A stretch of DNA of 48,980 bases from Pseudoflavonifractor phocaeensis. GTDB taxonomy: Bacteria > Bacillota > Clostridia > Oscillospirales > Oscillospiraceae. This document shows, piece after piece, positions 10,684-17,963 of the stretch (within the stretch, counting starts at the first letter, position 1; every line of letters starts with the position of its first letter). The position numbers and the translations under genes were made by a program. The notes beneath the pieces are model-generated. The model had not been told where the DNA came from. It searched no databases and was given only the letters and a program-made list of their open reading frames with translations. The stretch spans positions 1 through 48,980 of the forward strand of contig NZ_JACJLC010000019.1 of assembly GCF_016901955.1 (NCBI RefSeq), given 5' to 3'.

Positions 10684-10760
10684 CGCGGGGTAGAGCAGTT
10701 TGGTAGCTCGTCGGGCTCATAACCCGGAGGTCGAAGGTTCAAATCCTTCCCCCGCAACCA
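10684..10760 (+). tRNA. Initiator tRNA-fMet (CAT); the integration target of the island array
   Basis: A 77-base tRNA with the initiator signatures: an unpaired C1-A72 at the acceptor end (CGCGGGG against CCCCGCA), GGG/CCC pairs in the anticodon stem around CAT, and an encoded CCA. The last 45 bases recur twice downstream at 17919 and 24170, so this is the only complete copy. The functional gene is kept because each insertion restores its 3' half. Confidence 0.95.
10716..10760 (+). repeat. att copy 1 (inside tRNA-fMet)
   Basis: The 45 bases from the anticodon loop to the CCA end of tRNA-fMet are repeated exactly at 17919-17963 and 24170-24214. This is the integrase-side junction of element 1. 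Confidence 0.9.
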
Positions 10761-10762
10761 GA

Positions 10763-10799
10763 AAAAAACACCTGATTCCACGAGAATCAGGTGTTTTTT
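10763..10799 (+). terminator. Terminator after tRNA-fMet, brought by element 1
   Basis: An inverted repeat ACACCTGATTC / GAATCAGGTGT lies between an A-run and a T-run. It directly follows att copy 1, so it belongs to the element's left end. A different terminator follows att copies 2 and 3. Confidence 0.85.
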
Positions 10800-10841
10800 A
10801 TTACTTTTCTGCCATTTTTAAAAATGAGGCGTGTCGAGAAA

Positions 10842-10876
10842 TTCAACTTTAATTCAACTCGCCTCTCAAATTCAAG
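10842..10876. repeat. Left-end TTCAACT repeats (candidate integrase arm sites of element 1)
   Basis: TTCAACT occurs at 10842-10848 and 10853-10859, with a variant TTCAAG at 10871. Matching copies lie near the other end of element 1 (17783-17820). The symmetry suggests arm-type binding sites of the tyrosine recombinase. Confidence 0.5.
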
Positions 10877-12059
10877 CCTTTTTCAAAAAGATATCCGACA
10901 AGATATCTGCATTGCGCTGGTCGGCCTCCTCCATTACATGGGCGTAAATATTGGCCGTGGTGCTGACCTGGGCGTGTCCCAGCCGTTTGGAAATGCTCAC
11001 ACTGTCCACCCCATTGAAGTACAGCATGGAGGCCATTGTGTGCCGGAAGGCATGGGCGTTAATGTGTGGGAGTCCGTGGCGCTTGCTGAACTTCTTGAGA
11101 TAGTCGGTCACGCTGTCCGGGTGCATGGGCTTGCCGTTGTCCTGAGAGAATACGAAGTCCTGATTCTGGTAGTACTCCCCCAGTCGCAGCCGTTCCTCCG
11201 CCTGCCATGCCCGATACCGCCGGAGTAGCTGCATTGTCTCAACAGGTAGTGTGATGTACCGCCGGGATCGTTCCGTTTTGGGCGTACTCTCATAGATGCC
11301 GATATCCGGGGAATAAAGGATGCTATTGCAAATATAGATCCGGTTCCCCTCAAAGTCCACCTTGTCCCATTTCAGCCCCAGCACTTCCCCACGCCGTGCG
11401 CCGGTGATAAGCAGCAGGTGGACAAGCATTTTCCACTTCATAGGTTCCAGCTCCAGTGCGTCCCGGATCGCCGCCACCTGTTCCGGCTGGAAGTAGTTCA
11501 CTTCCTTGTGTTCTGCTTTTGGCAGTGTGGCACGGCTGGCGACATTGAACGGGACAAGGCCCTCCTTCACCGCCTGCTCCAGCACCGTGGAAATGAGCCT
11601 GTGGTGTTCCAGGATCGTCTTTGCGGACAGCTTACCGCCCCGCTTGTTCTGTCCGTCCTGTCCCAGCAAGGTGTATAGATCGTTCAGGTGGTCGGCCCGC
11701 AGCTCCCGCAGCTTGATGTGGCCTATCTGTGGGTAAATCCGGCCTGTCAGCTCCTTGTATCTCACAATGGTTGAGTGCTTCACCCCCCGTTGCTCTTTCA
11801 GACCAATTACATAATCGCAGTAGGCGGCAAACTTCTGGCGGCTGTCAGAAGTCATGCCCTCTTTGCACTCTTTCTCAAAGGTCGCGGCGAAAGCCTCGGC
11901 CTTTTTTCTTGCGCTCTTTTCCGTCCATGTGGGCGATACCTCAAACGTAGCCGTCCAGGGCTTGAGCTGCTTGCCGTCCATCCCCCGGCCACGATGGACG
12001 CGGATAGAGTAGGAAACCAGCTTGCCGGACTTGTCGCGGCGCTCTTGAATGTTAGCCAC
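10872..12059 (-). CDS. int: Tyrosine recombinase / integrase of element 1
   Basis: A 395-residue integrase. An N-terminal arm-binding domain (about 1-65) and a core-binding SAM-like domain (about 75-170) precede the catalytic domain (about 190-390), with active-site residues R222 (TGARRGE), H336 and R339 (HAFRH), H362 (LGHAQVS) and the nucleophile Y372. It would recombine the 45-bp tRNA-fMet core. The GTG start at 12059 overlaps the upstream repressor stop (TAGTG) and has an AAGGTG site, so the two genes are coupled. It is quite different in sequence from the second integrase at 24308 although both sit at identical att copies. Confidence 0.93.
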   Translation of the reverse strand: MANIQERRDKSGKLVSYSIRVHRGRGMDGKQLKPWTATFEVSPTWTEKSARKKAEAFAATFEKECKEGMTSDSRQKFAAYCDYVIGLKEQRGVKHSTIVRYKELTGRIYPQIGHIKLRELRADHLNDLYTLLGQDGQNKRGGKLSAKTILEHHRLISTVLEQAVKEGLVPFNVASRATLPKAEHKEVNYFQPEQVAAIRDALELEPMKWKMLVHLLLITGARRGEVLGLKWDKVDFEGNRIYICNSILYSPDIGIYESTPKTERSRRYITLPVETMQLLRRYRAWQAEERLRLGEYYQNQDFVFSQDNGKPMHPDSVTDYLKKFSKRHGLPHINAHAFRHTMASMLYFNGVDSVSISKRLGHAQVSTTANIYAHVMEEADQRNADILSDIFLKKA

Positions 12060-12808
12060 TATTGGTCACCTTCTTTCTGCTCGTTTGAAGTTTCTCCTTT
12101 ATTCTGATATCGCGGATTCTCCACCAATCCGTGTAGCATACATAGCGCAGCCTCATGACCATCACTGTTTAATTTCTCCATTATCTGAGCCACCACAATA
12201 CTGATGTGTCCCATAATAGAATCACCATTTGAGAATTTGACCGTCCATTGGGTGATATCCGCCGGAGCCGGTAATTGTCCATACAATGTAGCTATTTCTA
12301 TTTTAAGGGCTTTTGAAATCTTATCCAGATCTTTTGTTGATGCCGTTCCCGCATTTTCTTCATAGGCGCATATTATTTCTAGCGGAATCCCTGTTGCCTC
12401 AGAGAGACGTTCAGCTGTCATATTGCGTTTTGCACGATATCGTTTGATATTTCCGCCAACTACAACACCTACTTCACCTGATGCCTTACCTCTGTTTGTC
12501 TGCCAGATACCATTTACGCTATCTTTCAAAAGAGTATTTCTCTCCGCCCTGCTGGCGTTTTCTTCTTCGTCATTCATGAACCCCCCATGTCCCATGAGCC
12601 AGTCTAAGTGGACACCAGGAAATATCTTTACAATGTTTTCTGCTGCATCCAACGTCAAATTCCTGCGACCATTTACAATATAGGAGATATGCTCTTTGGT
12701 ATATCCAATCTTTTGAGCAAGGTCTTTCTGATCCATGCCATAGTAGGAAAGCAGCTTGCGCAAGTTTTCCCCCCGAATTTTGTTAACTTCACTCTTTTTT
12801 CGCGCCAT
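12059..12808 (-). CDS. Double-HTH (XRE-type) repressor of element 1, Stl-like by position
   Basis: A 249-residue regulator with two Cro/CI-type helix-turn-helix domains. One is at about residues 14-68 (MDQKDLAQKIGYTKEHISYIV); the second is at about 118-175 (NIKRYRAKRNMTAERLSEATGI). A C-terminal region of about 70 residues is unfamiliar. It is transcribed with int and divergent from the excisionase/primase genes, the place of the master repressor in phage-inducible chromosomal islands. It probably binds the tandem TTTGACT repeats in the divergent promoter. The ATG at 12808 has a GGGGCGGGTG site. The function in island control is inferred from layout. Confidence 0.8.
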   Translation of the reverse strand: MARKKSEVNKIRGENLRKLLSYYGMDQKDLAQKIGYTKEHISYIVNGRRNLTLDAAENIVKIFPGVHLDWLMGHGGFMNDEEENASRAERNTLLKDSVNGIWQTNRGKASGEVGVVVGGNIKRYRAKRNMTAERLSEATGIPLEIICAYEENAGTASTKDLDKISKALKIEIATLYGQLPAPADITQWTVKFSNGDSIMGHISIVVAQIMEKLNSDGHEAALCMLHGLVENPRYQNKGETSNEQKEGDQ

Positions 12809-12840
12809 TTCACCCGCCCCTTAAACAATCATAAAAGTTA

Positions 12841-17363: not shown

Positions 17364-17737
17364 AAAAGTTGATTGTCCTTTTCTGCCTTGTGTTCGCCGT
17401 CATGCTTGCTGGATGCAGCACCGCAGAGAAGCCCACCAACAGCCCCACAGCAAGCGCACAGGCCACGCCGGAGGCCGTGGTACTGTTTGAGACTGCCACT
17501 TGTAAAATCACGCTGGACGGCGCAGAAACCACCGTGGAGGACAAGACCACCGGCGAACAGTACAGTTTTACCACCACCCGGAAACTCAGCACCACACCGC
17601 CCATCCTGGAGCAGCTGCAAAGCCGCTGCATTGCCCGAACTTCCGTCAATACTGACACACTGAAAATCGAGCTGGCCGGGGCGCTGATCGTGGTGCATGA
17701 CCTGGCAGGAAGCCAGACCTATTATATCGACCCCTGA
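17360..17737 (+). CDS. Small lipoprotein, candidate island cargo
   Basis: A 125-residue predicted lipoprotein. Residues 1-18 are a typical signal with lipobox LAGC; the lipidated Cys is at about 19. A Thr/Ser/Pro-rich linker to about 42 leads into an 80-residue beta-rich domain (TCKITLDGAETTVEDKTTG, then a repeated beta pattern). The start overlaps the previous gene (ATGA). A surface lipoprotein is not needed for island replication, so it may be cargo that alters the host surface, for example as a phage-exclusion or adhesion factor. That role is speculation. Confidence 0.75.
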   Translation: MKKLIVLFCLVFAVMLAGCSTAEKPTNSPTASAQATPEAVVLFETATCKITLDGAETTVEDKTTGEQYSFTTTRKLSTTPPILEQLQSRCIARTSVNTDTLKIELAGALIVVHDLAGSQTYYIDP

Positions 17738-17743
17738 CACAAA

Positions 17744-17778
17744 TCCCCCGACCCTTCACCGGGCCGGGGGTATCTTTT
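17744..17778 (+). terminator. Terminator of the element 1 rightward operon
   Basis: A GC inverted repeat (CCCCCGACCC / GGGCCGGGGG) with a short loop, followed by TATCTTTTTG, just after the lipoprotein stop. Confidence 0.75.
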
Positions 17779-17782
17779 TGAG

Positions 17783-17820
17783 TTCAACAAAAATTCAACT
17801 CCACTATGAAAAGTTCAACT
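17783..17820. repeat. Right-end TTCAACT repeats of element 1
   Basis: TTCAACA at 17783 and TTCAACT at 17794-17800 and 17814-17820 mirror the repeats at the left end. They lie about 100 bases inside att copy 2. Probable integrase arm sites. The rest of 17740-17918 is AT-rich and without a gene. Confidence 0.5.
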
Positions 17821-17918
17821 ATTTTACAAAACGACACAAAACACTAAAACCGGCGAAACCATTGTGCCACAACACTTTGCAGGATTTTATAAAACAATAA
17901 AAAACGCTTGATTTTGAA

Positions 17919-17963
17919 CTCATAACCCGGAGGTCGAAGGTTCAAATCCTTCCCCCGCAACCA
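17919..17963 (+). repeat. att copy 2 (junction of elements 1 and 2)
   Basis: Exact 45-base copy of the tRNA-fMet 3' half. It lacks the 5' half, so it is not a tRNA gene. Confidence 0.9.

Follow-up and report, generated by a model that had tools for sequence, protein, structure and literature searches.

Which kind of mobile element occupies the tRNA-Met gene on contig NZ_JACJLC010000019.1 of Pseudoflavonifractor phocaeensis (assembly GCF_016901955.1) is the question raised by this locus. The window is the whole stretch of 48,980 nucleotides analysed here, and the unit in question, called element 1, lies in it between two copies of an attachment (att) site. A preliminary description, made from the sequence letters, had proposed for it the plan of a Staphylococcus aureus pathogenicity island (SaPI) or phage-inducible chromosomal island (PICI). 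Judging from gene content and from related loci, we consider that element 1 is probably a compact phage satellite of the Gram-positive PICI type, inserted in the 3' end of tRNA-Met and without a recognisable terS, the gene of the small terminase subunit. Most of what is known about phage satellites comes from staphylococci, streptococci, enterobacteria and vibrios.

The SaPI/PICI plan is supported by the gene order, the small att-bounded size, the lack of recognised structural genes and an iteron origin with two sides. About 7.2 kb had been expected between the att copies, and it turned out that two identical copies of 45 nt are spaced 7,203 bp from start to start. All eight genes of this copy are open frames (Table 1), and their proteins were profiled against Pfam, PHROGs and NCBIfam with curated cut-offs. 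The leftward integrase (int) and the repressor with two helix-turn-helix (HTH) domains were recovered by profile, and the divergent gap contains a promoter-like site as proposed (two such sites found, 0.5 expected). Of the rightward pair named beforehand, the primase-helicase is clear, with an NrS-1-type HBD, D5_N, DUF5906, a P4-family C-terminal part and a weak Pox_D5-like C-terminus, whereas the excisionase-like (xis-like) gene is weakly assigned, from a very weak profile match, its position and homologues at the same place in other genomes (44% in G109, 48% in G223, 78% in G018). The three small genes announced after the origin are a zinc-ribbon gene (zn), a predicted helical gene (g7) and a lipoprotein gene. 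No capsid, portal, terminase, tail, lysis, relaxase or conjugation family scored above its curated cut-off in the eight proteins, in agreement with the preliminary description as far as capsid, terminase, relaxase and conjugation genes are concerned.

The iteron origin placed after the primase is also borne out. Nine copies of GGTGGAG/CTCCACC are found in the 241 bases following the primase (15899-16139), three to the left and six to the right of an AT-rich core, while the same word occurs six times elsewhere in the element (7,005 bases counted). None of 500 dinucleotide shuffles reached nine copies (mean 0.06, maximum 1). The layout is the same in the related loci L020, L021 and L023; L071 has another iteron word. 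GGTGGAG is present in eight copies in G015, eight in G109 and nine in G004.

To a large extent this organisation is that of known PICIs. In the part of PMC6092414 consulted, PICIs are described with int on the left, the repressor, a divergent xis, primase and initiator (sometimes fused) and then the origin, with att direct repeats; they are typically about 15 kb long, contain no structural or lytic genes and carry TerS only sometimes. Element 1 shares with Gram-positive PICIs and SaPIs the order int, repressor, divergent xis (weak, E 0.32), primase and origin, and likewise has no structural or lytic gene above cut-off. Its two iteron sets around an AT-rich core correspond to a layout, given for Gram-negative PICIs in a figure legend of the same source, with an AT-rich region between iteron sets. 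It differs in being 7.2 kb long, in having no recognised terS or capsid-type gene and in a tRNA site that is common to other units. Genes unique to the class, packaging by means of an own terS or a cos/pac sequence of the helper, and induction, interference and transfer that depend on a phage are further marks of Gram-positive PICIs. By the absence of capsid, portal, large terminase, tail and lysis genes above cut-off it differs from a complete prophage. PICMI, the minimalist Vibrio satellites, contain int, alpA and a primase next to fis in Vibrionaceae, according to the consulted part of PMC10803314. Element 1 is similar to them in its few genes (int, a small DNA-binding regulator, a primase and unknowns), in the DUF5906-bearing primase and in the lack of capsid remodelling genes, but it sits in tRNA-Met of an Oscillospiraceae host instead of at fis, and DUF3987, found in the PICMI primase, is not seen.

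The primase was searched in related genomes. Matches at E <= 1e-50 were obtained in 14 of 199 related genomes (own genome included), and a five-row primase profile gave matches at E <= 1e-100 in 18 of 400 family genomes (own genome and profile members included). The preliminary description had named close homologues confined to full prophages or conjugative elements as the finding that would speak against a satellite; the three closest undeleted relatives (G109, G015 and G223; primase 82-92% identical) are att-bounded islands of 6.8-7.2 kb at tRNA genes. G109 contains a whole element of 7,230 bp at the same tRNA-Met, where int is 97% identical and the primase frame is broken, its two pieces being 87-92% identical; int is 98% identical in G018. 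The island of G015 (6,768 bp) is located at tRNA-Val, with a primase of 86% identity, an integrase that is only distantly related (35%) and nothing that matches the repressor, and that of G223 (6,838 bp, one contig) at tRNA-Arg, with int 92% and primase 82% identical. Decayed copies with internal deletions also exist in G002:C23 (L022:7983-9806), where the primase fragment has a stop codon, and in G004:C10 (L023).

Flanking repeats were sought at 17 loci. Seven of them (L020, L021, L036, L071, L072, L076 and L077) lie between repeats, 6.8-10.5 kb apart, that coincide in part with the end of a tRNA; at the ten others no such pair was found. The integrase of L072 is at the opposite end, so the gene order is not fixed throughout. 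One of these loci, L036:4431-14965, is a 10.5-kb tRNA-Thr island with a related primase; it holds a sigma-like gene and, next to the repressor, a Fic-like gene of 220 aa, these two being named by reading. Typing as island or prophage left out L073 and L074 (primase of 54% identity), the weaker primase loci L026-L033, L075 and L078-L083, and the viral loci L041-L044. The comparisons show a family of islands in which integrases and late genes have been exchanged.

Outside these genomes, a related primase was found in 1,595 records of the phage collection, only one of which, a human faecal contig of 4.3 kb, exceeds 60% identity; the best full-size phage primase among the 20 rows listed has 33% identity, and all 508 plasmid matches are below 60%. 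In the faecal contig (L019; MT839419, titled UNVERIFIED), a related primase and an integrase face each other, with a tRNA-end-like sequence between them by eye, although ARAGORN calls no tRNA. This order would be that of an excised circle. A link of MT839419 to a particle-enriched library was considered and not established; the candidate paper PMC8361208 does not name the record in the part consulted. In viral contigs, the single primase sequence and the lipoprotein and zinc-ribbon alignments retrieved nothing, while the five-row primase alignment retrieved seven loci and g4 three.

Weak TerS matches, or scaffold and capsid genes, were met in several related islands or contigs. In L071 (G223), a gene of 134 aa lies directly after the origin, at the place of zn, and matches a TerS family weakly (phrog_2538, E 8.4e-5); it is homologous (phmmer E 2.5e-17) to a 119-aa gene of L025 whose best TerS match has E 1.2e-5. 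On L025, a 9,586-bp contig in G068 with no integrase seen, there are also a scaffold gene that passes its cut-off (DUF4355, E 2e-6) and a capsid gene that shares 74% identity with the one in L047. L040 and L047, both IMG/VR contigs, encode a phrog_422 major head protein (E 8.4e-62 and 2.2e-58) after a scaffold-like gene; L040 shares the primase. L047 shares only the integrase, g4 and late genes, and its 77-bp terminal repeat suggests an 8,543-bp circle. Large terminase and portal were not recognised among the genes profiled in L047, L025 and L040, which covered part of their genes. A GP3_package-like gene of L077 stays just below the Pfam cut-off (27.9 versus 29.4 bits), and L039 has a clear TerS (phrog_309, E 2.8e-50). 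SaPIbov5, a cos-type SaPI, carries the capsid-protein homologue Ccm according to the part of PMC5052747 consulted. L025, L040 and L047, small elements with such a homologue as well, are possibly Ccm-like satellites, with the difference that they pair the capsid gene with a scaffold-like one; element 1 itself has no capsid homologue.

The zinc-ribbon gene connects element 1 with satellites of another host class. All 105 matches of zn in the phage collection come from Streptococcus, with 24-36% identity to the streptococcal homologues among the matches listed. Sixty of these records were listed, spread from the top to the bottom of the ranking: 56 bear the name satellite phage, and the remaining four are 10.5-21.4 kb long. 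An alignment of five sequences has 30 invariant columns, including both Cys pairs. The Streptococcus Javan satellite prophages are 9-20 kb in size (consulted part of PMC6813308; annotation of MK448544 and MK448426). With element 1 they have in common an HTH and primase-type plan and a homologous zinc-ribbon gene downstream of the primase (the second gene after it in Javan564). Differences are the host class and, among the Javan late genes, a phrog_36 transcriptional regulator, which we take to be ArpU. TerS was not found in the 6 of 29 annotated genes of Javan564 and Javan319 that were tested. Besides, four matches other than the own one were obtained for zn in 299 genomes of the phylum, two of which lie near an integrase and a primase match, while the third has an integrase and, by reading, a DnaB-like gene close by; the zn profile matches 3 of 149 closer relatives, all in the same genus.

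A number of observations weigh against a satellite of the PICI type. The length of 7,203 bp (6.8-10.5 kb in relatives) is half the typical PICI size, although the source gives that size as typical, so that it is not exclusive, and in element 1 neither TerS (by Pfam, PHROGs and NCBIfam profiles) nor a cos or pac site was found. Because no terS is recognised and the size is half the typical one, element 1 is called PICI-like and not a proven PICI. As candidate packaging sites, exact words of at least 14 nt common to element 1 and three contigs of its own genome with terminase-profile matches were collected. The contigs share 13, 1 and 2 words with it, against 0-3 per shuffle; the excess is on one contig. 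The longest word (19 nt) is shared by the lipoprotein gene and an SSB-like frame, and no word was recognised as a packaging site. The own genome contains no sure helper phage: its large terminase is represented by one long gene on C224 among apparent housekeeping genes, by a partial match on C11 with a stop codon at the contig end and by a weak one on C286 (E 4e-7), and no phrog_422 capsid gene is present. The zn gene also occurs in 19 plasmid records out of 72,556 (with sizes of 4.6-594 kb for the 15 that were listed) and is thus not exclusive to satellites, its fourth match in the phylum (G648) is near neither an integrase nor a primase match, and g4, g7 and the lipoprotein gene have zero matches in the phage collection. 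Some of the relatives are also less clear as satellites. L047 is without the window-type primase, and L039 has open ends and a virion gene, so it may belong to a phage and is not counted as a clean satellite. L040 was taken for an 8.5-kb circle or tandem, which was withdrawn since self-comparison shows only a partial repeat: 1,256 identical bases at 8,513-bp spacing, to the end of the 10,867 of 17,608 bases compared, with a differing upstream stretch. Such a partial repeat is no proof of a circle, and a tandem of two related units would fit equally, as would a mixed assembly.

Other explanations account for part of the same data. Element 1 might be an integrative mobilisable element that spreads by conjugation, a foreign relaxase acting on its own origin of transfer (oriT). 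Integrase and replication module would fit relaxase-less elements of this type too, other att-bounded units occupy the same tRNA, and one conjugative and one mobilisable plasmid are among the 19 records with zn, but the other 17 are predicted to be non-mobilisable, relaxase and mobilisation families gave nothing above cut-off in the eight proteins (no oriT search was made), and related islands bear TerS-like or capsid genes instead; on balance such an element is improbable. Nearly the same order and size at three tRNAs (Met, Val and Arg) with both ends present, the eight open genes of the window copy and a best-ranked full-size phage primase, among 20 rows, of only 33% identity all speak against an immobile remnant, left when a larger prophage lost its structural genes. 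We regard such a remnant as quite improbable, even though integrase, repressor and primase are all phage-type, two copies are decayed (G002, G004) and the primase frame of G109 is broken.

The replication module is complete, as would be the case for an integrative plasmid-like replicon carried by natural transformation or general transduction with no dedicated helper, and the part of PMC13376191 consulted describes satellites of S. thermophilus that were moved by natural competence. For such a replicon, no partition gene was recognised in the eight proteins by Pfam, PHROGs and NCBIfam, and the relatives with capsid or TerS-like genes point to packaging by phages, which makes this the explanation we find very hard to credit.

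Table 1. Features of element 1 and its ends in the window (positions of the whole stretch).
Feature	Position	Strand	Evidence
tRNA-Met(CAT), intact, left end, integration target	10684..10760	+	ARAGORN
Left att, 45 nt, 3' part of tRNA-Met	10716..10760	+	direct repeat D1
Tyrosine integrase (int)	10872..12059	-	Phage_integrase E 1.9e-29
Repressor, two Cro/C1-type HTH domains	12059..12808	-	HTH_3 E 9.9e-19, two stretches
Promoter-like site of rightward operon, in divergent gap	12849..12877	+	sigma-70 consensus match only, 10/12
xis-like small gene	12933..13136	+	phrog_66 E 0.32 (very weak), position, homologues
g4, small gene upstream of primase	13129..13530	+	phrog_2113 E 5e-9; ATG at 13129 chosen by reading
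Primase-helicase, 791 aa, TTG start	13523..15898	+	D5_N E 2.3e-27; TIGR01613 (P4-family primase C-terminus) E 3.6e-73
Iteron origin GGTGGAG/CTCCACC	15909..16090	.	left: 15909, 15922, 15928; right: 16001, 16010, 16054, 16065, 16076, 16084
Zinc-ribbon gene (zn)	16140..16736	+	conserved CPxCG and CxxC
g7, predicted helical protein, no known family	16752..17363	+	best family match E 0.06
Small lipoprotein gene	17360..17737	+	lipobox by reading; phrog_8801 (unknown function) E 8.6e-6
Right att, 45 nt, identical to left att	17919..17963	+	direct repeat D1
Third att copy	24170..24214	+	ends second att-bounded segment; integrase-like gene after

For the small genes, g4 was absent from the gene list of the preliminary description and is kept in related islands. 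A full-length relative of g7 is present in G109, and the lipoprotein gene is kept in G109, G015 and G002. The AlphaFold models of zn and g7 have a mean pLDDT of 59.5 and 45.0, that of g7 being of low confidence. Homology of g7 to the similar-looking helical genes of L071 and L036 was dropped, as phmmer ties g7 only to G109 and a fragment in G002. Some weak matches were not credited: the lipoprotein with an Rz-like spanin (phrog_456, E 0.0095), Cor exclusion (phrog_1119, E 1.3e-4), an RDF family (phrog_478, E 0.003) and TrsH/TraH (E 0.034), mostly over the signal peptide, and the repressor HTH with TrbA (E 9.8e-7, 28.9 bits against a cut-off of 96 bits).

The third att copy makes element 1 the first unit of a tandem array at tRNA-Met. 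The second att-bounded segment (17963-24214) is without an integrase and holds a GntR/aminotransferase-type gene, another aminotransferase and more metabolic-looking genes, named by reading and not by profiles. After the third copy follow an integrase-like gene (24308-25486, minus strand; 26% match to int20) and a small gene (25483-25713), which extend the array. In the same genus, G017:C9:321696-417492 contains five tRNA-Met att copies across about 96 kb of one contig, and the first unit there (L145) includes a sigma-like gene and a helicase besides g4 and a related integrase. One criterion for PICIs is that their att sites are unique and never taken by prophages; tRNA-Met att copies recur within the genus, where some of the occupants were typed.

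The origins of the family differ in their iteron words. G223 (L071) keeps the AT-rich core with the word GGTTACG (origin L071:8028-8196, primase 8197-10596). Its primase, compared with that of the window in blocks of 50 residues, is 94, 90 and 96% identical in blocks 12-14 and 74 and 51% in the last two, while G015, which has the iterons of the window, shows 98, 100 and 94% and then 80 and 82%; in G109 the last two blocks are 100% identical. Other blocks vary as well (G223 block 4 58% and block 7 68%; G015 block 7 50%), so the C-terminus is not the sole divergent part. For 15 members, the best 7-mer was tallied in the 350 bases after the primase, with 200 mononucleotide shuffles each. The four GGTGGAG members have 9-10 copies, G223 5, L076 6 and L047 5, reached by none of the shuffles, the word of L047 being unrelated and beside another helicase. 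Four copies in L019, L038, L040, L072 and L077 were reached by 1-6 of 200 shuffles and three in L036 by 36, and L039 and L025 gave nothing. The words are GGTTACG-like in L071, L038 and L072, GGTTAGG in L019 and GGTTGCG-like in L040, L076 and L077. In SaPIs, the specificity of the initiator lies in its C-terminus. In G223 both the iteron word and the C-terminus of the primase depart from those of the window, which suggests, within few and related sequences, that the C-terminus may read the iterons.

For element 1 as a PICI-type satellite, we infer phage-dependent induction and packaging, the step that defines the class. The repressor would silence the rightward operon until a helper phage lifts repression, and Int and Xis would then excise a circle. 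The C-terminal part of the primase-helicase would bind the iterons, melt the AT-rich core and amplify the circle, whose DNA would be packed into helper capsids, probably via a cos- or pac-like site instead of a TerS of the island. The zinc-ribbon, helical and lipoprotein genes might serve helper interaction, interference or host benefit.

In conclusion, element 1 is probably a phage satellite in a family from which such elements are little represented in the literature: works on satellites in Clostridia and Oscillospiraceae, gut Firmicutes and the human gut, judged mostly by titles and the beginnings of abstracts, gave none of Oscillospiraceae. A wider scheme, rather doubtful when all its parts are taken jointly, would see in Oscillospiraceae a large and mostly undescribed satellite family with one replication chassis (g4, primase and a re-specifiable iteron origin), to which different integrases and different late modules could be joined (the zinc-ribbon gene with the helical and lipoprotein ones, or a TerS-like gene, or scaffold and capsid). 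In that scheme zn might take over the function of TerS where the terminase of the helper packs the island, and the primase C-terminus might read a GGTnnnG code that keeps co-resident satellites off a shared origin. The paired change of iteron and primase offers a simple test case for origin specificity, and, if active, this family of islands would live at the expense of phages that infect common gut bacteria and would carry DNA between these hosts.

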